From IMG/VR virus record IMGVR_UViG_3300030202_000802, positions 1-26,814 of that record: a stretch of 26,814 nucleotides of DNA. One strand, written 5' to 3'. Source of the DNA: a virus. This document shows, one piece after another, positions 4,390 through 25,307 of this stretch. The translations under genes and the position numbers were made by a program. The notes beneath the pieces are model-generated. The model worked only from the letters and a program-made list of their open reading frames with translations. It ran no database searches and had not been told where the DNA came from. How positions within the stretch are numbered: position 1 is the stretch's first letter; each line of letters opens with the position of its first letter.

Positions 4390-6810
4390 ATGGCAATAGA
4401 AAAACAATTTGAAATACCAGAGGGAGAAAACTTAACTCTCTTTGATGAAGTAGACCAACCCCAAAAAGATATTGATGTAATGGCTACACCTGATGGTGGA
4501 GCTGAAGTTACACTACAAGATAATGCTATCTTAGAAGAAGCAGAAGCTATGGGATTGTTTGATGATGAACAACCTGAAGCTACCATGGCAGCACATGATT
4601 CTAATTTAGTAGAATTTATAGATGAGTCAGACTTAAGTGCTATCGCAAATGAATTACAAGATTCTTTTGAAAGAGACAAACAATCAAGAGATGAATATGA
4701 TTCTATAGCTGAAGAAGGTGTAGACTTATTAGGTTTTAAAGCAGAAGATAGTGATGAGCCATTTCCTGGAGCATGCGCATCTTCTCATCCTGTGCTATCA
4801 CAAGCAGTAGTAAAGTTTCAAGCAAAAGCTTATAAAGAATTATTCCCTACCGAAGGACCAGTGCGTACACGAATAGTTGGTATACAAAACCAACAAAAGA
4901 TGGAACAAGCTAATCGTGTGCGTCACTTCATGAATTATCAAACACAAATTCAAATGCCAGAGTATGGTCCTGAATTAGATCGTTTATTATTCTATGTAGC
5001 GTTATACGGTTCTGCTTTTAAGAAAACATATTGGGATGTTAACTTAGGTAGACCAAGAACTGAATATATTAAAGCACAAGATTTTTATGTAGACTATTAT
5101 GCATCTGATTTAGAGAACGCTGAAAGATTTACTCACAAGTATTCAATGTCTATGAATGAAATTAAAAAGTTTCAGATGGCAGGAACTTTTACAGACATAG
5201 ATATTGACTCAAGTCAAATAGATGAAACTTCTGCAGAAGAAGCATCTGATGAAATACTTGGAGTAACAAAACCGTACGGTGATACAGAACGTGTAGAAAT
5301 TTTAGAAATGCATGTTAATTTAGACTTACCAGGATTTGAAGATCCTAATGGTTTAAAACTTCCTTATGTAGTTCACATGACTGATGAAGGAAAAGTTTTA
5401 GCAATTAGAAGAAACTGGAATGCTGATGACATGAAAAAAGAAAAGAAAATGTATTTCACACATTACTACATGATTCCTGGTTTAGGTTTTTATGGTTATG
5501 GTTATTTACATTTAATTGGTGGCTTAACTAAAACAGCAACATCATCAATGAGACAATTGATTGATGCTGGTACTTTTGCAAATTTACCTGGTGGTTTTAA
5601 AGCACATGGTCTTAGAGTATTAGCACCAGATGAACCTATTGCTCCTGGTGAATGGAGAGAAGTTAATAGCCCTGCAGGTGATCTAGGTAAATCTTTACAG
5701 CCTTTACCATTCAAAGAACCTTCAGGAACATTATTTAATTTAATGCAGTATGTAGTAAATGCTGCTAAAGAGTTTGCTGACTCGACTGACAACATAGTAG
5801 ATCAAGCATCTAACTATGGACCTGTTGGTACAACTATGGCTTTGTTAGAACAAAGTTCTAAGTTGTTCAGCGCTGTGCACAAGCGTCTGCATAACGCCCA
5901 ATCCAAAGACCTGCGAATCTTAGCGAGACTAGATTTTGAGTATCTTCCTGATCTGTACCCGTATGAAGTCGCAGGTGGTGCACAGCAAGTTTTTAAAAAT
6001 GATTTTAATTTAAAATCAATAGATGTTTTACCAGTATCAGATCCTAATATGCCAACAGAAGCACACAGGATTGCAAAGATAAATGCGATTATGCAAATAG
6101 CTCAACAAAATCCAAACGCATATAACATGGAACAAATAGGTATGGAACTGTTTGCAGCTATGGGTATTGATGAGCCACAAAGATATTTAAAGAAAAGCAT
6201 GCAACCAATAACAGCTGATCCTGTTACTGAAAATATGGCTTCAATGAAGGGGGCACCTTTAGCACCTAGACAAGATCAAAACCATGATGCGCATATAGTG
6301 GCGCACGCAGCTATGATGCAGAATCCTGCATACAAAGAAAACTTACCTATGATTCAAACATTAGCGGCACACATACAAGATCACTTAGCTATGAAATATA
6401 AAGGCGAAGTAATGCAGATGATTCAAGATCCACAGATAAGACAAGCTGTAGGTTCTGGTCAACCGTTACCACCTGAATTAGAAAATCAAATAGCTTTATT
6501 AACAGCTAATGCTTCTGACTCATTATTAAAATTAGATGAAGAGAAACGAAAAATTATGGCTGGTGAAAAGAAAGATCCTCAAGAAGAACAAGTAGAAATT
6601 CAAAAAGAAGATTTAGAATTACGTAAAGCTAAACTAGCACTAGATGCTAAGAAACATCAAGATGAAATAGCATTAGAAGAAGCTAAAGTTATTATTGATG
6701 ATGAGAATACAGATCTAGAAAGAGAACGTAAGATGGCAAAAGATGCTATGGATATGGCTAAAGATGGAATACAAAAAGCAAAAATTATGATTAAAAGAGA
6801 GGGCATGTAA
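4390..6810 (+). CDS. Portal protein
   Basis: At 806 residues this is in the range of long podoviral portals, and it lies directly after terL, the canonical place. Residues 1-75 are very acidic. The body contains SSHPVLSQAVVKFQAKAYKELFPT (120-143; HPVLSQAVVKF is typical of marine podovirus portals), then alternating stem and wing segments. The last 100 residues are a charged, helical, coiled-coil-like barrel (EEKRKIMAGEKKDPQEEQVE onward). It forms the dodecameric gate for DNA. Codon choice shifts to GC-rich synonyms around 5866-5990. Its stop overlaps the next ATG (TAATG). Confidence 0.88.
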   Translation: MAIEKQFEIPEGENLTLFDEVDQPQKDIDVMATPDGGAEVTLQDNAILEEAEAMGLFDDEQPEATMAAHDSNLVEFIDESDLSAIANELQDSFERDKQSRDEYDSIAEEGVDLLGFKAEDSDEPFPGACASSHPVLSQAVVKFQAKAYKELFPTEGPVRTRIVGIQNQQKMEQANRVRHFMNYQTQIQMPEYGPELDRLLFYVALYGSAFKKTYWDVNLGRPRTEYIKAQDFYVDYYASDLENAERFTHKYSMSMNEIKKFQMAGTFTDIDIDSSQIDETSAEEASDEILGVTKPYGDTERVEILEMHVNLDLPGFEDPNGLKLPYVVHMTDEGKVLAIRRNWNADDMKKEKKMYFTHYYMIPGLGFYGYGYLHLIGGLTKTATSSMRQLIDAGTFANLPGGFKAHGLRVLAPDEPIAPGEWREVNSPAGDLGKSLQPLPFKEPSGTLFNLMQYVVNAAKEFADSTDNIVDQASNYGPVGTTMALLEQSSKLFSAVHKRLHNAQSKDLRILARLDFEYLPDLYPYEVAGGAQQVFKNDFNLKSIDVLPVSDPNMPTEAHRIAKINAIMQIAQQNPNAYNMEQIGMELFAAMGIDEPQRYLKKSMQPITADPVTENMASMKGAPLAPRQDQNHDAHIVAHAAMMQNPAYKENLPMIQTLAAHIQDHLAMKYKGEVMQMIQDPQIRQAVGSGQPLPPELENQIALLTANASDSLLKLDEEKRKIMAGEKKDPQEEQVEIQKEDLELRKAKLALDAKKHQDEIALEEAKVIIDDENTDLERERKMAKDAMDMAKDGIQKAKIMIKREGM

Positions 6811-7100
6811 TGCCACAAAAGAAAGACCCAAGATTAGCTAGAGCTGGTGTATCTGGTTATAACAAACCTAAACGAACTCCTAACCATCCTAAAAAATCTC
6901 ACATAGTAGTTGCTAAAGAAGGTGACAAAGTTAAAACTATTAGATATGGTCAACAAGGAGTTACAACTGCAGGCAAACCTAAAGCAGGAGAATCTAGAAA
7001 ACAAAAGATGAGAAGAAAATCTTTTAAAGCTCGTCATGCTAAAAACATAGCTAAAGGCAAAATGTCTGCTGCATATTGGGCTAACAAAAGCAAGTGGTAA
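6810..7100 (+). CDS. Conserved small basic phage protein (96 aa)
   Basis: A 96-residue, highly basic protein starting in the TAATG overlap with the portal gene, with AGAGGG as ribosome site. The C-terminal half has the pattern RRKSFKARHAKNIAKGKMSA followed by AYWANKSKW, which I recall from many marine phage and large-virus small proteins (a domain of unknown function); the middle has VVAKEGDKVKTIRYGQQG. The charge suggests nucleic-acid or scaffold contact, and its place between portal and head genes suggests a virion or assembly role. Function not established. Confidence 0.8.
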   Translation: MPQKKDPRLARAGVSGYNKPKRTPNHPKKSHIVVAKEGDKVKTIRYGQQGVTTAGKPKAGESRKQKMRRKSFKARHAKNIAKGKMSAAYWANKSKW

Positions 7101-7651
7101 AGTTTAGATATTTAATTCCGTTATACATAGCTGTGCTGTGCATGGGTGCATTTTTAAATTTGCATGCTGAAACGAATACCGTGTCAAGTACGGTTGTGAC
7201 CAATTCAACACCACCTACGGCAAATGCGCCAACTATTATGAATAATAACAGTGATATATGTAAAGTTGGTGTGGGAGCTAGTGTGCAAAATAATGTTGTA
7301 GGACTAGCTACAGGTGTAGTTATTGATGATGAGTTATGTCAAAAACTTAAACTATCACGATCTCTATATACTTACGGTATGAAAGTTGCAGCAGTATCCG
7401 TCTTATGTCAAGACCCACGAGTCTGGGATGCAATGACCGATGCAGGCACCCCTTGCCCTGCACGAGGTTCCATCGGTTCTGAAGCAGCTCAATATTGGAG
7501 CGACAACCCATCTGAAATTCCAGATGGTAGTAAGTATAAAACAGATTACGTTCAAGCAAATAAACCAGAACCAAAGGAGTTTAGTGATGCGAACAATGCT
7601 TTATTCTTTAAAACTTTGTTTATTATTACTACTGGTCTCCTTATCTTCTAA
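7094..7651 (+). CDS. Exported protein with C-terminal membrane segment (185 aa)
   Basis: Starts at GTG 7094, seven bases inside the previous gene; no strong ribosome site is visible. Residues 1-25 form a signal peptide (basic VKFR, a hydrophobic core, cleavage likely after LHA). The mature part has four cysteines (C56, C82, C105, C122 approximately), including VAAVSVLCQDPRVWDAM and AGTPCP, so disulphides are likely. The last 15 residues (LFFKTLFIITTGLLIF) are a membrane segment lying in the region that also encodes the signal peptide of the next gene. A conserved-looking phage protein of unknown role, probably in the envelope. Confidence 0.7.
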   Translation: MVKFRYLIPLYIAVLCMGAFLNLHAETNTVSSTVVTNSTPPTANAPTIMNNNSDICKVGVGASVQNNVVGLATGVVIDDELCQKLKLSRSLYTYGMKVAAVSVLCQDPRVWDAMTDAGTPCPARGSIGSEAAQYWSDNPSEIPDGSKYKTDYVQANKPEPKEFSDANNALFFKTLFIITTGLLIF

Positions 7652-9047
7652 AGCAGATACTTGTTTACCAGACGTTGAAGGACTCTGTACTCCTGGCGTC
7701 ACTATAGATGAGCAAGTTACTATAGAAAAAACAGAAGAAGATAAAGGTACAGAAATTATCTTCACGACTACAACTACTAAGACTACAACCACAACCACAG
7801 TTACTAACGAAGACTCTGGTGATATCTTAGATGGGGATAATGATTATGTTGCCACAAGTAAAGAAGGTGACATGGATTATGACTGGGGTGGTGAAGGACC
7901 AGCGAGTATGCCATCAGGAACATCCTGTGGTCAACTAGGCTCAGACAAGTGTGCCATGATTACAGGTAGTGGCAATAATAAATCTCGTATGGGCGTTGAT
8001 GGTATGGGAACTACATTCTACCAAGAGGTAGATGTATCAGATTTAAATATTGATAATGGAGGACAAGTAACCTACTCAATTGAAGTAAATAAGCAAGATG
8101 CTCAAGATAGAATCTACATGCACGTTACAGGAACTGGAGGGGGCACTTCAGTCTTTTCAGGTACTGATATCTTGTCTGAGTCTGGAGTTGTATCAGGCTA
8201 TCAATCATATAACGGGTCTTTCGATTTCAGTGGCGTTTTAAGTAAAGTCACCATAGAGATAGGTGGTCGAGATATTAATTTAGCCATCGGTCCTATGTTT
8301 GATGATGTATCTGTGAACGTATTTTATAATGTTATATCTACTATTATCGAACAACAGATAACCACAGTAGAAGAAATAGTTTATCTAAATCTTACAGACC
8401 CTACTCAAATAGATTTGATTGAAGAGATTATCGAATATAACGATATTAAAGTTGATGATTCAGGGGAAATAGAATTTACCCCTATCGAAACTGTGCAAGA
8501 AGATATATCTTATGAAACAGTAGAAGCAGAAATAGATTTTAAAATAGATGATATTAAACCAGAACCAGAAATGCAGATGGCAGAATTAGAAGCTGATATG
8601 GAAATAGAAATGGAAATGGAAGTAGTAGAAATAGAAGAGACAGTAGATGAACAACCAACAGAAGAAGAAACAACCGAACCCGATAGCGAAGCTACTGAAG
8701 AGCCCGCTGTGGAAGTTGAAGATAGTACAGAGCAAGAAGATATACAACAGGAAAAAACAGAAGAGCCTGAAAAACCTGTGAAAGAACCTAGTGCAAAAGA
8801 AAAAGCTGCTACTAAGATAGTAAAAAAGATGGGTGATAAAGCTAGATATGATGAATCTAATCAAATGAAAACATTAATAGTAATGCAAATCTTAGGCAAT
8901 ACTAAAACATTTTTTGATACTCAAGCAACAATACAAGATACAAATGTTAATGAGTATTTAAATAAAGTAATAGACGATCCATACGGGGGTCTATTTATAG
9001 CAGAACAAGGACAAATAATGGAGGATATAGTAAATGCCCAGTATTGA
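7587..9047 (+). CDS. Large exported acidic protein (486 aa)
   Basis: The frame is open from 7440, but ATG 7587 with AAAGGAG seven bases upstream is the right start, since it begins a clean signal peptide (MRTMLYSLKLCLLLLLVSLS, cleaved near KADT). Then come a Thr-rich linker (about residues 60-72), a beta-rich domain (about 95-250; Gly/Ser/Asp-rich, a jelly-roll or carbohydrate-binding type is possible), a long Glu/Asp/Pro-rich low-complexity segment (about 320-410), and a helical C-terminal domain (about 415-486). It overlaps the upstream gene by 65 bases. Function unknown: a periplasmic or virion-associated protein is the best guess. Confidence 0.75.
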   Translation: MRTMLYSLKLCLLLLLVSLSSKADTCLPDVEGLCTPGVTIDEQVTIEKTEEDKGTEIIFTTTTTKTTTTTTVTNEDSGDILDGDNDYVATSKEGDMDYDWGGEGPASMPSGTSCGQLGSDKCAMITGSGNNKSRMGVDGMGTTFYQEVDVSDLNIDNGGQVTYSIEVNKQDAQDRIYMHVTGTGGGTSVFSGTDILSESGVVSGYQSYNGSFDFSGVLSKVTIEIGGRDINLAIGPMFDDVSVNVFYNVISTIIEQQITTVEEIVYLNLTDPTQIDLIEEIIEYNDIKVDDSGEIEFTPIETVQEDISYETVEAEIDFKIDDIKPEPEMQMAELEADMEIEMEMEVVEIEETVDEQPTEEETTEPDSEATEEPAVEVEDSTEQEDIQQEKTEEPEKPVKEPSAKEKAATKIVKKMGDKARYDESNQMKTLIVMQILGNTKTFFDTQATIQDTNVNEYLNKVIDDPYGGLFIAEQGQIMEDIVNAQY

Positions 9048-9546
9048 GTATGCGGGAATGAAGGTAACTGGAGGAAAGGTGTTTGCCATTCTAACCTTGT
9101 TATCAGCTCTCGGAGGAGCCGCTTGGACAGGCTTCAATTTTTATTCGGACTACCTTTCAATGAAGGAGAAGATTTTAACTTACACCGAACCAGACCTTTC
9201 AGGGTTTGATAAAAAGATTGCACTTGTAGAAAGTGAAACTCAAGCACAAATGGAAATTGTTTCACAAAAAATAGATGGTCTTAAAAGTGAGTTAGATATA
9301 GTACTAGAAGAAATAAATTTAATATCTCAAGTAAGTCGTGAATTAAAAGATGATCTTAAAACAGATCTGCGTCAGATGGAAGGAGATGTCAGACATATTA
9401 CAGAAATAGTTAATGATGTAGAAGACAGACAGAAAGAAGATGCTAGAGAACTGTTAGATGAAATGAAATTATTAGAAGATAGTCTAGATTTAAAAATAGA
9501 TAAAGCTTTAAATAATCCTTTATCAGGGTTGACATCTAAGAATTAA
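9034..9546 (+). CDS. Membrane-anchored coiled-coil protein (170 aa)
   Basis: Begins 14 bases inside the previous gene, with GGAGG upstream. Residues 14-36 are one membrane segment (VFAILTLLSALGGAAWTGF). Residues 60-165 are charged heptad-like helix (ETQAQMEIVSQKIDGLKSEL and onward), a long coiled coil. An N-terminal anchor plus periplasmic coiled coil is the plan of inner-membrane spanins (Rz), but internal virion or envelope proteins can look alike, and no partner lipoprotein is seen. Its last codons overlap the -35 of the hsp20 promoter. Confidence 0.7.
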   Translation: MPSIEYAGMKVTGGKVFAILTLLSALGGAAWTGFNFYSDYLSMKEKILTYTEPDLSGFDKKIALVESETQAQMEIVSQKIDGLKSELDIVLEEINLISQVSRELKDDLKTDLRQMEGDVRHITEIVNDVEDRQKEDARELLDEMKLLEDSLDLKIDKALNNPLSGLTSKN

Positions 9547-12799: not shown

Positions 12800-13708
12800 A
12801 TGGCTATATCAAGAGCACAAATCCTTAAAGAACTTGAGCCAGGTCTTAATGCGATTTTCGGTACTGAGTATAACAGATACGAAAATGAGCATGCCGTCTT
12901 GTTCGATGAGGAAACATCAAACAGAGCATTTGAAGAAGAAGTACTCTTCCCAGGCTTTGGTAATGCAGGTGAGAAATTCGAAGGTGCACCAGTATCTTAC
13001 GCTGAAACAGGTGAAGGATATGTATCACGATACACTCACAAAACAGTTGCATTAGCATTCTCATTAACTGAGGAAGCTATGGAAGATAACTTATATGATA
13101 AGTTGTCAACCAGACTAACCAAAGCTTTAGCAAGAGCTATGGCTTCTGCAAAGCAGTTAACAGCAGCTAACGTTTATAACAACGCCTTTGACGGAAACTT
13201 CACAGGTGGTGATGGTCAATCATTAGTATCTAATGCACACCCATTACAAAACGGTAGTACTGGTTCCAACAGACCAGCAACTTACGCTGACTTGTCTGAG
13301 ACATCTTTAGAAACAGCATTGATTGACATTGCTGGATTTACAGATGACAAAGGCGTGCCAGCTGCAATTACTGGTAAAACATTGCACATTCCAAGACAGT
13401 TAGTATTTGTCGCTGAAAGACTTATGAAGTCTGCAGGTAGACCAGGTACTGCTGATAATGATATTAATGCAATCAACAACATGGGTATGTTACCTGGCGG
13501 TTACTTTGTAAACCACAGATTTAATGATACCGATGCTTTCTTTATTAGAACTGACTGTCCTAACGGAACTAAGATGTTCAATAGAGCTGCATTAACAACT
13601 AAAATGGAAGGTGACTTTGAAACAGGTAACGTAAGATACAAAGCCAGAGAGAGATATTCATTTGGATTCTCTGACTGGAGAGCTGTCTACGGTAACCAAG
13701 GAGCCTAA
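12800..13708 (+). CDS. Major capsid protein (HK97-fold, Mu gpT-like)
   Basis: 302 residues preceded by an ideal AGGAGGATAAATT. The N-terminus (ISRAQILKELEPGLNAIFGT) and the EGAPVSYAETGEGYVSRYTH strand look like the Mu gpT/uncultured-marine-phage capsid group. It also has an AFSLTEEAMEDN-LYDKLSTR helix region, the SNAHPLQNGS loop, a long central P-domain, and a C-terminal RYKARERYSFGFSDWRAVYG strand. It forms the icosahedral shell and is expected to be the most abundant virion protein. Strong SD, terminator-like hairpin just after the stop, and location after scaffold and decoration genes all fit. Confidence 0.9.
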   Translation: MAISRAQILKELEPGLNAIFGTEYNRYENEHAVLFDEETSNRAFEEEVLFPGFGNAGEKFEGAPVSYAETGEGYVSRYTHKTVALAFSLTEEAMEDNLYDKLSTRLTKALARAMASAKQLTAANVYNNAFDGNFTGGDGQSLVSNAHPLQNGSTGSNRPATYADLSETSLETALIDIAGFTDDKGVPAAITGKTLHIPRQLVFVAERLMKSAGRPGTADNDINAINNMGMLPGGYFVNHRFNDTDAFFIRTDCPNGTKMFNRAALTTKMEGDFETGNVRYKARERYSFGFSDWRAVYGNQGA

Positions 13709-18378: not shown

Positions 18379-18816
18379 ATGGGATATTTAGGTAATCCAG
18401 TAACAAAAGATTTTACAAGCAGTACATCTGTACAAACATTAACAGGCGATGGTTCTTCTGCATATGCACTATCAGTTAGTGTAGCAGTGCCAGAAGATAT
18501 TGCGGTTCTTCGTAATGGTGTGCGCCAAAAACCTACAACTGACTATACAGTAGCAGGCAGTCAAATAACTTTTACAACAGCTTTAGCGGGTACCGATACT
18601 TGTTTTGTTATATTTTTAAATAGTGTTGTTGGTACAAATACACCAGGCAACGATTCAATAACAGCACCTATGATGACATCATTCAATGGTGTCTATGAAA
18701 ACTTACAAACAATAACATCAACTGTAGCAGTAGCTGCAAGTGATAACGCATTCTTAGCAGGTCCTGTAACATTCACAGGAACTGTCACAGTGGAGGGTAA
18801 TCTTACAGTAGTATGA
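18379..18816 (+). CDS. Tail-fibre protein, MGYxGNP type (copy 1, 145 aa)
   Basis: 145 residues. Begins MGYLGNP, then the common fibre N-terminal domain: TGDGSSAYALSVSVAVPEDI, VLRNGVRQKPTTDYTVAGSQ, ITFTTALAGTDTCFVIFL. It then has a short linker SITAPMMTSFNGVYENLQTI and a beta tip TVAVAASDNAFLAGPVTFTG. A clear paralogue lies at 21530 (MGYIGNP). The domain attaches fibres to the tail. It ends with an ATGA overlap onto the next fibre gene, so the array is translated as a coupled unit. Confidence 0.8.
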   Translation: MGYLGNPVTKDFTSSTSVQTLTGDGSSAYALSVSVAVPEDIAVLRNGVRQKPTTDYTVAGSQITFTTALAGTDTCFVIFLNSVVGTNTPGNDSITAPMMTSFNGVYENLQTITSTVAVAASDNAFLAGPVTFTGTVTVEGNLTVV

Positions 18817-19403
18817 GCACACTTGAAGTAAATAGCATTCAACCCCTATCATCGGGAACAACAGTAACATTAGGTGCTAGTGGTAAAACATTAAGTATAC
18901 CATCAGGCTGTACAATATCGAATAGTGGAACCGCTACAGGATTTGGAAAAATTGGTCAAGTAGTTTCAACAACAAAAACAGACAAATCAACTTTTACCTC
19001 TACTTCTTTTACTAGTATATCTGGTTTTAATGTTTCAATCACACCTACATCTACAAGCAGTAAAATATATCTTATGTGTTCGTTTTCTTTTGGAACAACA
19101 ACAAATGTTTATGGTGGTATAAGATTTCTTCGTGATAGCACAGCAATAGCTGTTGGTGATGCAGACGGAGTAAAAAATCAAGCAACTGCTCCTATGTCAA
19201 ATGCTATATTTGCTCGTGCACAAAATACAGACATGAACTTTTTAGACTCGCCTAATACGACTTCAGCTACCACTTATTATGTACAAGTTAAAATTAATAG
19301 TGGTCAAACTTTAAGTGTTAATAGTTCAGGTGAAGATGAAAATAATGCATCAACTGGTTTTAGATATGTTTCAACAATTACAGCAATGGAGGTCCTAGCC
19401 TAA
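18813..19403 (+). CDS. Short tail-fibre/receptor-binding protein, GFGKIGQV type (copy 1)
   Basis: 196 residues. N-terminal anchor STLEVNSIQPLSSGTTVTLG with SGKTLSIPSG, then TGFGKIGQVV, then a C-terminal jelly-roll-like head (SSKIYLMCSFSF, TTYYVQVKINSGQTLSVNSS). The GFGKIGQV linker and the head recur at 20488, and the linker in shorter form at 21036. The anchor recurs in the C1q-type genes. Overlaps its neighbours by four and one bases. Likely a trimeric short fibre with receptor-binding tip. Confidence 0.75.
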   Translation: MSTLEVNSIQPLSSGTTVTLGASGKTLSIPSGCTISNSGTATGFGKIGQVVSTTKTDKSTFTSTSFTSISGFNVSITPTSTSSKIYLMCSFSFGTTTNVYGGIRFLRDSTAIAVGDADGVKNQATAPMSNAIFARAQNTDMNFLDSPNTTSATTYYVQVKINSGQTLSVNSSGEDENNASTGFRYVSTITAMEVLA

Positions 19404-19936
19404 TGGGAACAGTATTCGTAGATAATTTAGAACCACAATCAGGCACTAGCTTAACTTTAGGCGCGAGTGGTGATACAGTAGCATTAGCTAGTGGAGCTTC
19501 TCAAACATTAGCAGTGAATACTCCCGCATTTTTAGCACATAAAACTGATGGTAATCAAAGCATATCAGCAGACACTGCTACTCTTATTACATTTAATACA
19601 GAAACTTTTGATAGTGATGGTAAGTATGCTTCCAATAGATTTACACCTACAGTGGCAGGCAAGTATATGATTGGATGTTCTTTAAGATGCGTCTCAGTGA
19701 GTTCAGCATCTTCATTGTTTTTAATGATAAGAAAAAATGGAACTGAAAGATTAGCTAAAATTACCAGACCAGATTCTAATGGCGGAGATGCAGGATTAGA
19801 CTTACATGGTATTATTGAAATGGATGACAATGATTATGTAGAAATTTATTTAGATTCTAGTGATAGCTCTCCAACAATAAGAAGTTCATCAAACTTAGAA
19901 TCATTTTTTTATGGATATAGAATTATAGGAGCATAG
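19403..19936 (+). CDS. Short fibre with C1q-like head (copy 1, 177 aa)
   Basis: Anchor GTVFVDNLEPQSGTSLTLGA, then SGDTVALASG. The head starts at TPAFLAH and shows the C1q/TNF-like pattern: TLITFNTETFDSDGKYASNR, FTPTVAGKYMIG, RKNGTERLA, DNDYVEIYL, YGYRIIG. Such heads trimerise and bind ligands at the fibre tip. Paralogous to 19937 and 23280 and, more distantly, 22732. The gene starts in the TAATG of the previous gene and its stop directly abuts the next ATG. Confidence 0.78.
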   Translation: MGTVFVDNLEPQSGTSLTLGASGDTVALASGASQTLAVNTPAFLAHKTDGNQSISADTATLITFNTETFDSDGKYASNRFTPTVAGKYMIGCSLRCVSVSSASSLFLMIRKNGTERLAKITRPDSNGGDAGLDLHGIIEMDDNDYVEIYLDSSDSSPTIRSSSNLESFFYGYRIIGA

Positions 19937-20488
19937 ATGTCAAAGATATTAGTAGATACAATCGACACAAGAAGCGGAACTACTACCTTAACATTAGGTT
20001 CATCCAATGCAGGTACGATTGCCTTGGGTAGTGGTGATGTGCAAAGTAATTTTTTATATCCTGCTTTTGAGGCAAACCTTGGTTCAGACCAAACTATTTC
20101 TGATAATAGTTATACAAAAATTAGCATAGGCACAGAGGTTTTTGATTCAGATAGTAAATATGATGCGAGTTCAAATTATCGTTTTACACCCACAATTGCA
20201 GGAAAGTATTTTGTTTATGGTTCAGCTCGTTTTGAAACTGACGCATCACAAATGCAATTAGGCTCTACTGCTATTTACAAAAATGGAAGTATTTACGCAG
20301 AACGGACAATAGATTTCAGAAGTAATAACGGACTTCAAATGAGTGTAGATGTTTCTGCTACAATAGATATGGATACAGACGATTACGTTGAGCTGTATGG
20401 AAAAATTTTTAAAGGTGGAGGCAGTGTAATTAGAATATTGACAACTAACAAAAGCACTAACTTTGGAGCGTATAGAATAGGAACATAA
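19937..20488 (+). CDS. Short fibre with C1q-like head (copy 2, 183 aa)
   Basis: Anchor SKILVDTIDTRSGTTTLTLG, then a C1q-like head: YPAFEANLGSDQTISDNSYT, EVFDSDSKYDASSNYRFTPT, IAGKYFVYG, IYKNGSIYAERT, TDDYVELYGK, and final YRIG. It shares the block order and many residues with copy 1, but the exposed segments differ, as expected when one scaffold is used for several receptors. Abuts copy 1 with no gap and overlaps the next gene by one base. Confidence 0.78.
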   Translation: MSKILVDTIDTRSGTTTLTLGSSNAGTIALGSGDVQSNFLYPAFEANLGSDQTISDNSYTKISIGTEVFDSDSKYDASSNYRFTPTIAGKYFVYGSARFETDASQMQLGSTAIYKNGSIYAERTIDFRSNNGLQMSVDVSATIDMDTDDYVELYGKIFKGGGSVIRILTTNKSTNFGAYRIGT

Positions 20489-21036
20489 TGAGCACATTAA
20501 AAGTATCAACAATCTCGCCTCTCGGCACTGACGCAACAAAAACAATTACTCTTGGTGAAAGTGGTGGCACATTAGGTATTGCTTCTGGTGCAAAGACATC
20601 AGGTTTTGGTAAGATTGGTCAAGTGGCTATGAACACAGCAGATTTAAATGTTACTATTGGATCTACTAGTTATGCTGAGATAAGCACTGATTTAAGATTA
20701 ACTCTTACACCTAATACTACATCTTCAAAATTTATTTATTCTTTAAACGGTACTGTTTTTACAAACGCTAACAATACAGCAACTTTTTTTGCTTTATATA
20801 AAAGCACAGATGGTGGTAGTAGTTTCTCATTAGTAGATGATGACATAGGTAGATATTATAACTATCAAGCATTATCTAGTAATTCTTTTTACAACTATAT
20901 ATGTTGGTTTGTTACAGATACACCTAATACAACTAATAGTATTATTTACACTCCTTATGCTAAATATTCTAACAATTCTACAAATTTTGGTAATAGTGGT
21001 CCTGTTACCTGTATATTAAGAGAGGTATTAGACTAA
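20488..21036 (+). CDS. Short tail-fibre/receptor-binding protein, GFGKIGQV type (copy 2)
   Basis: 182 residues: anchor STLKVSTISPLGTDATKTIT with LGESGGTLGIASG, linker TSGFGKIGQVA, then a jelly-roll head (TSSKFIYSLNGTVFTNANNT, ATFFALYKSTDGGSSFSLVD, NTTNSIIYTPYAKYSNNSTN) ending in CILREVLD. It parallels 18813 in block order. Head sequence is strongly diverged from copy 1 while anchor and linker are kept, which points to duplication followed by tip change or swapping. Confidence 0.75.
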   Translation: MSTLKVSTISPLGTDATKTITLGESGGTLGIASGAKTSGFGKIGQVAMNTADLNVTIGSTSYAEISTDLRLTLTPNTTSSKFIYSLNGTVFTNANNTATFFALYKSTDGGSSFSLVDDDIGRYYNYQALSSNSFYNYICWFVTDTPNTTNSIIYTPYAKYSNNSTNFGNSGPVTCILREVLD

Positions 21037-21530
21037 TGGCAGTAACAACAATACCAACAGCGGGAATAGCGGACAGTGCAGTCACAATAGCTAAAGCATC
21101 TGGTTTTGGTAAACTTATAGGTATACAAGATAATGTTTTAGGTACTGGTGCTGTTACAACTTCTGGCACTTATGCTGATGTTATATCAACAACATACACT
21201 CCAAGTTCAACATCTAACTATTTATATGTAGTGGTAAATGCTAATTACAGATTACATGGACTAAGCTCAACTACAACACCTAATGGTTATCTTCAAATAA
21301 TTTCGCCAACTACAACACGAGCTACTAGATTCATTGAAGAAAAATTCCCTGCAAATTCAGATAATGTTAAAGGATTTGTTTCTTTCTACGCATATTGGAA
21401 TCCTAACACTACAAGTTCAGTGGCGGTAAAATTACAATTTAAAGAAGATGCTGGAGGACAGTTTTTAGTTTATGATAATACAGATTATACAAGAGCAACA
21501 TCAATGACAATTTTTGAGGTAAGCGCATAA
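21036..21530 (+). CDS. Short tail-fibre protein with GFGK linker (164 aa)
   Basis: 164 residues. N-terminus MAVTTIPTAGIADSAVTIAK differs from the SGT-type anchor, followed by ASGFGKLIGIQ and the same head style as 18813 and 20488: TTSGTYADVISTTYTPSSTS, YLYVVVNANYRL, SSVAVKLQFKEDAGGQFLVY, final MTIFEVSA. An anchor exchange onto the same head type is a simple reading. One-base overlaps on both sides. Confidence 0.75.
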   Translation: MAVTTIPTAGIADSAVTIAKASGFGKLIGIQDNVLGTGAVTTSGTYADVISTTYTPSSTSNYLYVVVNANYRLHGLSSTTTPNGYLQIISPTTTRATRFIEEKFPANSDNVKGFVSFYAYWNPNTTSSVAVKLQFKEDAGGQFLVYDNTDYTRATSMTIFEVSA

Positions 21531-22003
21531 TGGGATACATCGGAAACCCTGCAGTCCAGGGAAATTTTTCAGTAATTGACGATATTAGCGGAAGCTTTAA
21601 TGGTTCCACCACACAGTTTACGATAGCTGTAGGGGGCACCACACAAACAATAGGTTCACTAGCATCGCTAATGATTCATATAAATGGTGTCTATCAAGTA
21701 CCAGGAACAGCCTTTACAGCGGGCTCAACATCTGGTACAATAGCATTTACATCTGCACCAGCAAGTGATGCAACATTTTCTGGACAGATATTCGGAGATA
21801 CTTTAGACATAGGTACTCCAAGTGACGCAACAGTTACTGCTGCGAAACTAACAAGTATTCAAGGCGCGTATAGAAATGTACAAACTTTGACGGGAGGACT
21901 TTCTATTGCAGCATCTGAAAATGCGAGTATAGTGGGTCCTATAACAGTGTCCTCAGGACAAACAATAAACATAGCCAGTGGCGGAACACTGGTGATACTA
22001 TAA
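21530..22003 (+). CDS. Tail-fibre protein, MGYxGNP type (copy 2, 157 aa)
   Basis: Paralogue of the gene at 18379: MGYIGNP, FNGSTTQFTIAVGGTTQTIG, MIHINGVYQVPGTAFTAGST and the linker TAAKLTSIQGAYRNVQTLTG, then the short beta end ENASIVGPITVSSGQTINIA. The linker SIQGAYRNVQTLTG corresponds to SFNGVYENLQTITS in copy 1. It contains an AGGGGGCAC copy (21631-21639) coding Val-Gly-Gly-Thr. A second start of the anchor-plus-fibres order suggests the array was partly duplicated as a block. Confidence 0.8.
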   Translation: MGYIGNPAVQGNFSVIDDISGSFNGSTTQFTIAVGGTTQTIGSLASLMIHINGVYQVPGTAFTAGSTSGTIAFTSAPASDATFSGQIFGDTLDIGTPSDATVTAAKLTSIQGAYRNVQTLTGGLSIAASENASIVGPITVSSGQTINIASGGTLVIL

Positions 22004-22013
22004 GGAGTAAACA

Positions 22014-22382
22014 ATGGCAGATTGTGCACAAGCAATACAATCAATCGGTTCATACGAGTTTGTCATAAATGGTGCCCCCTCTACCGAAGCGGAGTTTAAT
22101 TCGCAAGTTAAGTGGGTATCTGGCGCTGACTCTAACGGCACAGCTATTTTTGGCTCTAAGCCAGATGCTGTTACTTGGGCAAAAGTCAAAGCTGATATGG
22201 ACAAACAAGATGCATTCGCTGATCAGAAAGCAATCAACGAAACAGCAAGAGCTTATCTTGCTTCAACTGACTGGATGGTGGTCAGAGCAGCAGAAGGTGG
22301 AACCGCTGTACCTTCTGATGTAGCAACGAAAAGAGCGGCAGAACGTGCTAAAGTTGTGGAATACGCAAACTTTAGCGGATAG
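22014..22382 (+). CDS. Tail-fibre assembly-like protein (122 aa)
   Basis: ATG 22014 with AAGGAG. The C-terminal half (AYLASTDWMVVRAAEGGTAV, then PSDVATKRAAERAKV) is the well-known pattern of phage fibre assembly/chaperone-type proteins (xYLxxTDWYVxR...VPxxVxxxRAxAR). The N-terminal half (SYEFVINGAPSTEAEFNSQV) is a small beta region. It is followed by a similar gene with the identical AGGAGTAAACAATGGCA start context. Inference: a helper in fibre trimerisation or attachment. Confidence 0.7.
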   Translation: MADCAQAIQSIGSYEFVINGAPSTEAEFNSQVKWVSGADSNGTAIFGSKPDAVTWAKVKADMDKQDAFADQKAINETARAYLASTDWMVVRAAEGGTAVPSDVATKRAAERAKVVEYANFSG

Positions 22383-22391
22383 GAGTAAACA

Positions 22392-22721
22392 ATGGCATCA
22401 TTAGCAACAAAGGTAAAACTTTACTGCGCAGCTAATTCAAAAACTGTAGACTTTACAAAAGATGTTTTACTTCAGGATGATTCTGATGGTAAGGGTCCAT
22501 ACATAAAAGAATGGAATATTTCTGGTTTGGCTCAACCTTCAGCAGATCAACTTGCTGCACACGATTCAGCAGGTAACACTGAAGAGACAAACAATGAAGT
22601 TAAAGCTAAACGTAGAGCAGCGTACGGAGATATTGGAGATCAGCTAGACGAGATCTATACAGATATTGACGCATGGAAAACTAGAATTAAAGCTGTTAAA
22701 GACGCAAACCCAAAATCATAA
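22392..22721 (+). CDS. Tail-fibre-associated protein, XkdW/assembly-like (109 aa)
   Basis: 109 residues. Contains EWNISGLAQPSADQLAAHDS, recalling the tail-fibre assembly domain (xWNxxxLxxPTxEELxA), and a C-terminal helix RRAAYGDIGDQLDEIYTDID with AWKTRIKAVKDANPKS, a very common phage fibre-associated pattern (QLDxIYxDxxxWxxxIxxVKxxxPK). The start context repeats that of 22014. Likely works with its neighbour on the fibres. Confidence 0.7.
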   Translation: MASLATKVKLYCAANSKTVDFTKDVLLQDDSDGKGPYIKEWNISGLAQPSADQLAAHDSAGNTEETNNEVKAKRRAAYGDIGDQLDEIYTDIDAWKTRIKAVKDANPKS

Positions 22722-22731
22722 GGAGTAAGTA

Positions 22732-23280
22732 GTGGTATCACAGTTAAAGGTAAATGAGATTATAAAACAGTCAGGCTCATCAATTACGATTGGTGAAGCA
22801 GGAGATACCATTACTGTTCCTTCAGGAACTTTAGCAACTGATTTTTTTAATAGCACAGCATTTCAATCATACCAAAGTGGTGGCGACTTTACAATAAGTA
22901 ACAATACTTGGACTACTGCTCCTCTTGCAACTACTGAATATAATTTCGGAAGCGGTTTTGATACTTCATCATATGTCTATACAGCCCCTAGCACTGGTTA
23001 TTACAACTTTAATGTTACTATTATGCTTTACAATCCAACAGCAAGAAATTTTATGGCAAGGATATTAAAAAATAATACTGATGCTATAAAACAAGCAAGA
23101 AGAGAAGATGGTGCTGACGGAAAACAAGATCTAGAAAGTATTCATGTTAATGCAGTAGTGCAATTAGATGCAGGAGATAATGTAAGATTTCAAGGATATA
23201 TAGAGATGGATAGTAGTTCTGATAGAAGAATACTAGGTGGTCAATCGAATACTTATGCTAAAGGCGAGAGGATAGGTTAA
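22732..23280 (+). CDS. Short fibre with C1q-like head (copy 3, 182 aa, GTG start)
   Basis: Starts at GTG 22732 behind AAGGAG. Anchor VSQLKVNEIIKQSGSSITIG with AGDTITVPSG, then a C1q-like head: NSTAFQSYQSGGDFTISNNT, FDTSSYVYTAPSTGYYNFNV, RILKNNTDAIKQ, LDAGDNVRFQGYIEM. It is a more distant member of the C1q group, and the last strand differs. The coupled TAATG with the next gene places both in one translation unit. Confidence 0.72.
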   Translation: MVSQLKVNEIIKQSGSSITIGEAGDTITVPSGTLATDFFNSTAFQSYQSGGDFTISNNTWTTAPLATTEYNFGSGFDTSSYVYTAPSTGYYNFNVTIMLYNPTARNFMARILKNNTDAIKQARREDGADGKQDLESIHVNAVVQLDAGDNVRFQGYIEMDSSSDRRILGGQSNTYAKGERIG

Positions 23281-23813
23281 TGACTAGTAAACTCAAAGTA
23301 AACATACTTGCTGATGGCGGTGATAATGCCATTATGACTTCTGATGGGTCAGGCTCTTTAACACTTAATAATGCTGCATTGAAAAACACTCCTGCTTTTT
23401 TTGCAAAATTAGGAAGTAATCAAACTATTGCAGATGGTGCTTGGACAAAAGTTAATTTTAGCACAGAAGAATGGGACACAGATTCTGCATACGACACTAG
23501 TAATTATCGTTTTACAGTTCCAAGTGGTGAGGGTGGTAAATATTTTTATTCATATTCAATGTTTATATCTGGTCTTGATGAAGGTGAATATTGCCAATCA
23601 AGATTATACCTTAATGGATCATCAATTAACGAAGGTTTTGCAAGATCATATTCACAGAATAATATTGAGATAACAGTAGGCAGAGCGTCAGTCATTGATT
23701 TATCAGTAGGTGATTATCTTGAAGTTTATGCACAACAAACAGCGGGATCTAGTGAAACAATAAGTGCTTCAAATTTTTCAACTTGGACAATGTATAAATT
23801 AATAGGAGTATAA
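23280..23813 (+). CDS. Short fibre with C1q-like head (copy 4, 177 aa)
   Basis: Anchor TSKLKVNILADGGDNAIMTS, then NTPAFFAKLGSNQTIADGAW, TEEWDTDSAYDTSNYRFTVP, GGKYFYSY, SRLYLNGSSINEG, VGDYLEVYAQQTAG and final MYKLIGV. The SNQTIxD and YDxSxYRFTxP blocks match copy 2. It overlaps copy 3 by one base and is separated by one base from the larger fibre gene. Confidence 0.78.
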   Translation: MTSKLKVNILADGGDNAIMTSDGSGSLTLNNAALKNTPAFFAKLGSNQTIADGAWTKVNFSTEEWDTDSAYDTSNYRFTVPSGEGGKYFYSYSMFISGLDEGEYCQSRLYLNGSSINEGFARSYSQNNIEITVGRASVIDLSVGDYLEVYAQQTAGSSETISASNFSTWTMYKLIGV

Positions 23814-24933: not shown

Positions 24934-25107
24934 ATGATACAGACAATAACAAAAATAACATTTGAAATTGATAATTCAATTACATATAAAGTTGTTTTTC
25001 AAGATAATTCAACAATCTATGTTCCTCACAATACAGACAACAGACACTACCAAGAAATACTTGAGTGGGTTGCCGCGGGTAATACAATAACCGACCCAGG
25101 AGCGTAA
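24934..25107 (+). CDS. Mini fibre-associated protein (57 aa)
   Basis: ATG 24934 follows the fibre stop directly; 57 codons to TAA 25105-25107, overlapping the next ATG (TAATG). The end HYQEILEWVAAGNTITDPGA matches a phage pattern I recall (N-x2-Y-Q-x2-L-x-W-V-A-x-G-N-T), found in short proteins beside fibre genes and as C-termini of fibre helpers. No clear separate ribosome site except GGAG in the upstream gene. Probably a fibre helper; function inferred. Confidence 0.65.
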   Translation: MIQTITKITFEIDNSITYKVVFQDNSTIYVPHNTDNRHYQEILEWVAAGNTITDPGA

Positions 25108-25307
25108 TGAAAATAGATCTTAAATTAATAGCACCTTATGTAGTAATGGCTTTTGGTATAGCCGTGACATGGGGCATGTGGTCTGAAAGACTAGATGCTG
25201 TTGAAACTAAAGTAGATAGTATTACTCAAATGCAACAGGACATTGCCATTATCAAAGAGAAGATAATGTGGATGGAGAGTTACTTAGTAAATATACCTAA
25301 CAGGTAG
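25107..25307 (+). CDS. Small membrane protein with coiled coil (66 aa)
   Basis: 66 residues: a membrane helix at about 7-25 (LIAPYVVMAFGIAVTWGMWS) and then a coiled coil (LDAVETKVDSITQMQQDIAI and on). One membrane segment with the remainder helical resembles small holins, spanin-like proteins or membrane-bound lysis regulators, but no endolysin lies nearby, so the role stays open. Starts in the TAATG overlap with the previous gene. It is laid out like the 170-aa protein at 9034. Confidence 0.65.
   Translation: MKIDLKLIAPYVVMAFGIAVTWGMWSERLDAVETKVDSITQMQQDIAIIKEKIMWMESYLVNIPNR

Follow-up and report, generated by a model that had tools for sequence, protein, structure and literature searches.

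Three adjacent genes of a virus, here called P1, P2 and P3, belong to a cassette that recurs in many diverged phage loci, in which P1 and P3 are conserved as a pair and the gene between them varies. They lie in a 26,814-nucleotide stretch (positions 1 to 26,814 of IMG/VR record IMGVR_UViG_3300030202_000802; "the window" below means this whole 26.8 kb stretch, which is a portion of a virus record of 37,670 bases). The cassette is neither a one-off insert nor a local curiosity, and because it recurs across so many diverged phage loci the association of the trio goes beyond chance. Our leading, tentative reading, which we put at rather less than even odds, is that the three proteins work as a single unit: late in infection they would form a three-part complex in the host cell envelope and play a spanin-like part in virion release. 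The three genes of the window are:

7094-7651, + strand: P1, 185 amino acids, GTG start; signal peptide, then a short S/T/N-rich stretch, a four-Cys domain and a hydrophobic C-terminus
7587-9047, + strand: P2, 486 amino acids, ATG start; signal peptide, jelly roll like that of carbohydrate-binding modules (CBMs; residues ~74-247), E-rich acidic stretch and C-terminal helical segment
9034-9546, + strand: P3, 170 amino acids, without Cys; N-terminal transmembrane segment, long helical (probably coiled-coil) tail and NPL motif at residues 161-163

A previous reading of the letters alone (the sequence-only reading) had described these as a Cys-containing exported protein with a C-terminal anchor, a large exported acidic protein and a membrane-anchored coiled-coil protein, and the first two descriptions hold. 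In addition to its signal peptide P1 has 17-residue hydropathy maxima of 2.13 (residue 7) and 2.08 (residue 169), and of its cysteines at positions 16, 56, 82, 105 and 121 the last four are invariant. P2 is strongly acidic (isoelectric point 4.1; 104 D+E versus 30 K+R), with 42 D+E and 5 K+R in residues 301-400; its mechanically called open reading frame (ORF) begins at 7440, but the position of the signal peptide indicates that the real start is the ATG at 7587. The anchor of P3 is present as a single hydrophobic stretch (peak 1.76 at residue 16), while the coiled-coil part of its description is less firm, the heptad signal being modest (hydrophobic residues at 19 of 34 a/d positions, shuffle mean 15.6, P=0.03).

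When P1 was compared by tblastn with 50,697 phage records, ten matched: six pelagiphages, two roseophages and two uncultured phages. Inspection of the neighbourhoods shows that the order P1-P2-P3 is common to the matching phages, with small genes sometimes interposed:

HTVC033P: P1-P2-P3 are gp46-45-44
HTVC023P: P1-P2-P3 are gp45-46-48
HTVC202P: P1-P2-P3 are gp24-25-26
HTVC115P: P1-P2-P3 are gp54-53-49
Baldr: P1-P2-P3 are 001-003-004
Mosig (Kyanoviridae myophage): P1-P2-P3 are 202-201-200
uvMED S28-C10 (Autographiviridae): same P1-P2-P3 order
CRP-810 (roseophage): P1, middle gene and P3 are gp53-52-51
CRP-207 (roseophage): P1, middle gene and P3 are gp75-74-73

The carriers thus include podoviruses, an Autographiviridae phage, a Kyanoviridae myophage and roseophages, and the position of the cassette in the genome differs among them; it is found beside endolysin or holin genes, before the terminase, or elsewhere, so that the description "insert inside the head region" in the sequence-only reading applies to the window's genome and not to the others. 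CRP-810 gp51 and CRP-207 gp73 carry the labels "lysozyme" or "putative lysozyme", yet they are P3-like proteins with a transmembrane segment plus helix and an NPL end; the GH108 endolysin of CRP-810 is gp31. None of eight genomes (HTVC008M, HTVC010P, HTVC027P, RcapMu, P-SSM2, S-PM2, syn9 and P-SSP7; Mosig was the positive control) contains P1, and the last four led us to reject the spanin-less cyanophages as carriers. The P3-like matches in HTVC010P and HTVC027P are weak, and their C-termini have no NPL.

With profiles derived solely from the isolates and the window, at least 294 loci with P1 were collected, which form 122 clusters at 80% identity, a lower bound on the size of the family. Linkage was counted where at least 4 kb of downstream sequence is present, which excluded 34 of the 122 representatives of this first set and 23 of the 53 in a held-out set. 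P3 lies downstream of P1 on the same strand in 87 of 88 non-redundant representatives (P3 was the query that retrieved part of the window-like loci, and within the 88 these do not bear independently on its presence; the remaining collections were retrieved by P1). A P2 of the jelly-roll type is present in 54 of the 88; its profile misses the other middle genes (34/88), and "P2" is thus one variant of a variable slot. The P3 profile has 259 matches in total, of which 229 are downstream of P1, none are elsewhere in P1 loci, and 30 are in loci without a P1 match, most of which we take to be cut short. The held-out scan, which was centred differently, gave 53 new clusters, 30 of them long enough, and P3 was recognized by its hidden Markov model profile in 29 of these; the thirtieth (L363) encodes, by eye, a 118 amino acid transmembrane protein that ends in NANPLSL. 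The idea that the three envelope-type proteins belong together is therefore borne out for P1 and P3, which are hardly ever apart in phages, while the synteny survey shows that the middle gene varies between loci.

Of 87 P3 proteins, 85 have NPL at most 12 residues from the C-terminus and the remaining two end in PL, compared with 9 of 4460 background ORFs with NPL; the motif is also at the end of all 29 held-out P3 proteins. None of the 87 has a second transmembrane segment, and the N-terminal segment itself is weak in three. P1 has a signal-peptide-like N-terminus in all representatives of three groups (42/42, 15/15 and 25/25) and in 19 of 24 roseophage representatives.

The middle slot is more heterogeneous. 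The window P2 and the HTVC033P-type P2 have the jelly roll in common (hhalign probability 96%, 99 columns), and the two roseophage isolates have a different middle protein of 187 and 261 amino acids. Median identities in the HTVC033P/Mosig group are 66% for the P1 domain, 41% for P3, and 25% and 29% for the N- and C-terminal parts of P2 (28/32 loci); all parts are conserved alike (73-78%) in the window's own group of 15 loci. Four exported proteins, several with Cys, are present between P1 and P3 in L286 (8401-10644) and in the homologous regions of L298 and L306, and those scanned have no Pfam match above cut-off. P1 also has variants, in L281 (5589-6965) and L300 (7212-8489), in which N/S/T/G repeats occupy about 300 residues ahead of the Cys domain.

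Family searches say little about function. Residues 42-134 of P1 significantly match the profile of PHROG 20531 (E 1.4e-9), a family without assigned function for which the library records no link to P2 or P3; its C-terminal part is also matched by the repeat-rich P1 of L281 and by a roseophage lipoprotein in L241 (E 5e-4). Scans of Pfam, PHROGs, NCBIfam and PDB sequences gave no functional match for P1 and sub-threshold ones only for P2, and the library matches of P3 are of a generic coiled-coil type, with marginal matches to spanin PHROGs (E 0.08-0.2). The AlphaFold2 model of P1 has a confident core (residues ~80-150; pLDDT ~90 around 80-140) of two strands and helices; it matched nothing in the PDB (Foldseek E 1.2 or worse, no VIA-align match at Z 2), which does not show that the predicted fold is new. 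Residues ~74-247 of P2 are modelled as a jelly roll that superposes on CBM4/16/22/61, Fbs1 and phage tailspike domains (Z up to 11.9) at 8-16% sequence identity in the listed matches; the model has moderate confidence in the jelly roll only and is poor outside it (mean pLDDT 47), and P2 has no Pfam CBM match. The likeness to carbohydrate-binding jelly rolls is thus one of fold, and sugar binding is a prediction. Searches of the open-licence PMC literature brought up no description of a P1-P2-P3 cassette.

The cassette is found near lysis genes more often than expected. A search of 49 cassette-bearing records for Pfam endolysins gave matches above cut-off in 28, and in 12 of these the endolysin is no more than 2 kb from the cassette (2.6 expected, P=2e-6); when the records are collapsed to 20 lineage groups this is true of six (1.7 expected, P=0.0044). 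For this test the cassette was taken as P1 plus 2.6 kb, the lineage groups were made by hand and coordinates were entered manually. We rely on it instead of an earlier phmmer test (23 of 41 loci within 2 kb, 9.5 expected), which was biased in that its seeds came from cassette neighbourhoods. The nearby endolysins are of the GH24, Amidase_2 and M15 types, and these differences imply several independent pairings of cassette and endolysin. In addition, a GTA-type holin adjoins P1 in three records (G015, G016 and Mosig).

Roseophage cassettes carry one more component, a lipoprotein of 67-86 amino acids with the Cys pattern of the P1 domain, encoded directly upstream of P1 and overlapping its start in 9 of 11 representatives. 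Examples are:

CRP-810 (L334), 36391-36651, - strand: small lipoprotein; no feature is annotated here in the CRP-810 record
CRP-207 (L353), 13156-13371, - strand: small lipoprotein
L241, 7823-8038: small lipoprotein

The scan of these two phages, which covered 47.7 of the 57.7 kb of CRP-810 and all of CRP-207, showed no other convincing lipoprotein. Neither the window's record nor the complete genomes of HTVC023P, HTVC202P, HTVC033P, HTVC115P and Baldr yielded a convincing small one, so a canonical outer-membrane spanin (o-spanin) is not seen in these. Two lipoproteins near P1 match PHROG 1119 ("Cor"), over the signal peptide only.

These observations bear on how phages open the outer membrane. 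Kongari et al. (PMC6139136) report that about 13% of the phages in their survey, many of them marine, have no detectable spanin and leave unanswered how these open the outer membrane; they propose that other topologies, for example a protein with a C-terminal transmembrane segment, might serve. The cassette resembles the two-component spanins (Rz/Rz1) in that P3 has an N-terminal transmembrane segment and helical tail of the inner-membrane spanin (i-spanin) type, in its overlapping genes, in the small lipoprotein of roseophages and, in 12 of the 28 endolysin-bearing records, in its proximity to a lysis gene. P3 would fit an i-spanin as an inner-membrane, N-in/C-out protein with a helical periplasmic domain, a topology that we infer from its sequence, and the four invariant Cys of P1 agree with the presence of periplasmic Cys in at least one spanin component, a feature given in PMC6139136. 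It differs in the extra large secreted P2, in the coexistence of a real Rz/Rz1 pair in one locus (L165, below), and in that the small lipoprotein with a lipobox that defines an o-spanin, present in the roseophages above, is lacking from the window's record and the five pelagiphages. Because the lipobox is lacking in the window we do not file the cassette as a spanin, although it may work like one. Unimolecular spanins (T1 gp11 type) were also considered, since the window's P1 is an exported protein whose C-terminal segment is hydrophobic; they combine an N-terminal lipobox and a C-terminal transmembrane segment in one protein, and P1 differs from them in having no lipobox and in that its partner genes are nearly always present.

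In the proposed complex P3 would be anchored N-in in the inner membrane and extend its helical tail into the periplasm, with the NPL end facing outward. P1 would be exported; in the window its hydrophobic C-terminus would hold it in place, and in roseophages a small outer-membrane lipoprotein that copies its domain would support it. P2 would be exported and bind an envelope glycan (peptidoglycan or lipopolysaccharide) with its jelly roll. We infer that the three are expressed late and form a complex that would link inner membrane, wall and outer membrane; once the endolysin cuts the wall, the outer membrane would yield and the virions would be freed.

Several facts weigh against this. In 16 of the 28 records more than 7 kb separate the cassette from the endolysin; CRP-810, HTVC115P, HTVC202P, Baldr and G001 are among these, and G001 holds a locus (L003) whose P1 is identical to that of the window. 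HTVC010P and HTVC027P, which have no P1, also have no convincing lipoproteins, so the missing o-spanin is not special to cassette carriers. A canonical overlapping Rz/Rz1-like pair is present in L165 (5587-6418), a close relative of Mosig, followed by a holin-like gene and then the cassette; the L165 lipoprotein matches PHROG 812 ("Rz-like spanin", E 1.1e-8), and homologues of the pair are present in L158 and L326. A second spanin would be redundant in L165, and in that lineage the cassette is probably in the lysis neighbourhood without being the sole spanin. The N-terminal domain of P2 is strongly variable relative to the P1 domain (median 25% versus 66% identity in the HTVC033P/Mosig group), a pattern that a specificity module would show too. 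Finally, a homologue of P1 is encoded by a bacterium, away from any recognized phage genes. The only plasmid match of P1 is an unannotated 299 amino acid protein of the 2.48 Mb megaplasmid of Variovorax paradoxus VAI-C (CP063167.1; L360 8725-9621), with a signal peptide and a stretch rich in S, T and N; it keeps the Pro, Cys, Asp and Gly positions that are conserved in the P1 domain. It lies between genes for an exported G/A/S/N-rich protein of 230 amino acids and an exported protein of 114, with response regulators on both sides, and nothing phage-like is annotated around it. The remaining cellular matches are nine loci in contigs of metagenome-assembled genomes, which may be phage DNA. The sequence-only reading had named separate occurrence of the homologues in unrelated contexts as an observation that would speak against a unit, and this P1 without P3 is in part such a case. 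Together with the repeats of L281 and L300, the Variovorax context makes a role at the surface or in a matrix more likely for the P1 family as a whole and reduces our confidence in a purely lytic one.

A strong rival, ranking close behind release though itself rather unlikely, is superinfection exclusion or surface remodelling, in which the complex would display or anchor P2 and the low-complexity stretch of P1 on the surface of the cell, and the predicted sugar-binding domain of P2 would mask or alter a receptor or make infected cells sticky. The CBM-like fold of P2, the N-terminal part of P2, which ranks with the most variable elements next to a conserved P1, the long repeats in some P1 proteins, the several exported proteins between P1 and P3 in L286, L298 and L306, and the Variovorax neighbours all suit such a device. 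The significant endolysin linkage and the holins that adjoin P1 do not, nor does the roseophage lipoprotein beside P1, which is o-spanin-like in size and position. The curli (type VIII secretion system, T8SS) clusters of pelagiphages (PMC9599517, PMC7029224) resemble the cassette as an exported, envelope-directed gene set that moves between phage families; membership in that known system was rejected, since CsgG is in 0 of the 49 cassette-bearing records (many of which are fragments) and in 4 of 14 control genomes. Improbable in our estimation is a part in lysis timing or lysis inhibition, in which the complex would sense the envelope and act on the holin or endolysin instead of the outer membrane. 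Such a part would agree with the nearby holin-like and endolysin genes, and the canonical spanin pairs of L165, L158 and L326 would then be no contradiction, but many cassettes are far from any recognized lysis gene and known antiholins gave no match in the library scans made. Least probable is that these are virion or genome-delivery proteins, envelope proteins used for assembly or packaged and used at entry. The cassette does lie between portal and capsid genes in the window and CRP-810, and a frequent small basic neighbour is somewhat similar to a minor-head/DNA-pilot PHROG, but the signal-peptide-like N-termini of P1 argue for export from the cell and the cassette's position differs between genomes. 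A lysis or spanin-like role, as the sequence-only reading had suggested among others, stays the best single, if tentative, reading.

The genes that flank the cassette in the window are:

4390-6810, + strand: portal protein (phrog_1216, E 6.9e-42)
6810-7100, + strand: basic protein of 96 amino acids (phrog_7595), between portal and P1
9612-10010, + strand: HSP20-like chaperone (PF00011, E 2.9e-19), after a 65-nucleotide gap from P3
10278-10607, + strand: GroES-like co-chaperonin (PF00166, E 1.5e-11)

The full order is small and large terminase, portal, 96 amino acid gene, P1, P2, P3, HSP20, a 72 amino acid gene, GroES and a scaffold-like gene (terminase and scaffold names were assigned by reading the sequence). 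The trio is thus located between portal and chaperone, as had been said, except that the 96 amino acid gene separates portal and P1. The overlapping ends are likewise real within a chain of four genes from 6810 to 9546 (7 nucleotides between the 96 amino acid gene and P1, 65 between P1 and P2, 14 between P2 and P3) and do not extend to P3 and HSP20. The nearest relatives of the portal are those of pelagiphages HTVC027P and HTVC023P and phages DSL-LC04 and 023Pt_psg01 (38-41% identity), homologues of the 96 amino acid protein (cluster C0, 23 of 118 loci) are found near the cassette in other phages, and no GH24 endolysin was found in the window's 37.7 kb record. The window also encodes, at 25107-25307, a 66 amino acid transmembrane-plus-helix protein like HTVC115P gp48, which adjoins P3 in that phage; homologues directly follow P3 in six of ten loci. 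Consecutive proteins of ~110-200 amino acids, many with a "TLxLGxSG"-like opening, are encoded at 18813-23813 and resemble short fibre or appendage paralogues. In the L002 ORF at 7326-9176, close to the right edge of the window, a few consecutive unknown residues mark a gap in the record.

The near-fixed gene order across phage groups provides concrete genes to test for outer-membrane opening in spanin-less phages. In its most specific form, which we consider doubtful, the release reading would make the cassette a lipobox-free three-component outer-membrane release machine of abundant marine phages without Rz/Rz1, with P3 as a helical inner-membrane rod that ends in an NPL latch, P1 as its four-Cys latch partner and P2 as an exchangeable glycan-binding arm; this would be a third route beside the two-component and unimolecular spanins. 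If the cassette is instead a surface or exclusion device, phages that infect abundant ocean bacteria would share a widespread and unrecognized one. In both cases, hundreds of marine phage genes now labelled "hypothetical" are joined into one system, and two "lysozyme" labels are corrected.

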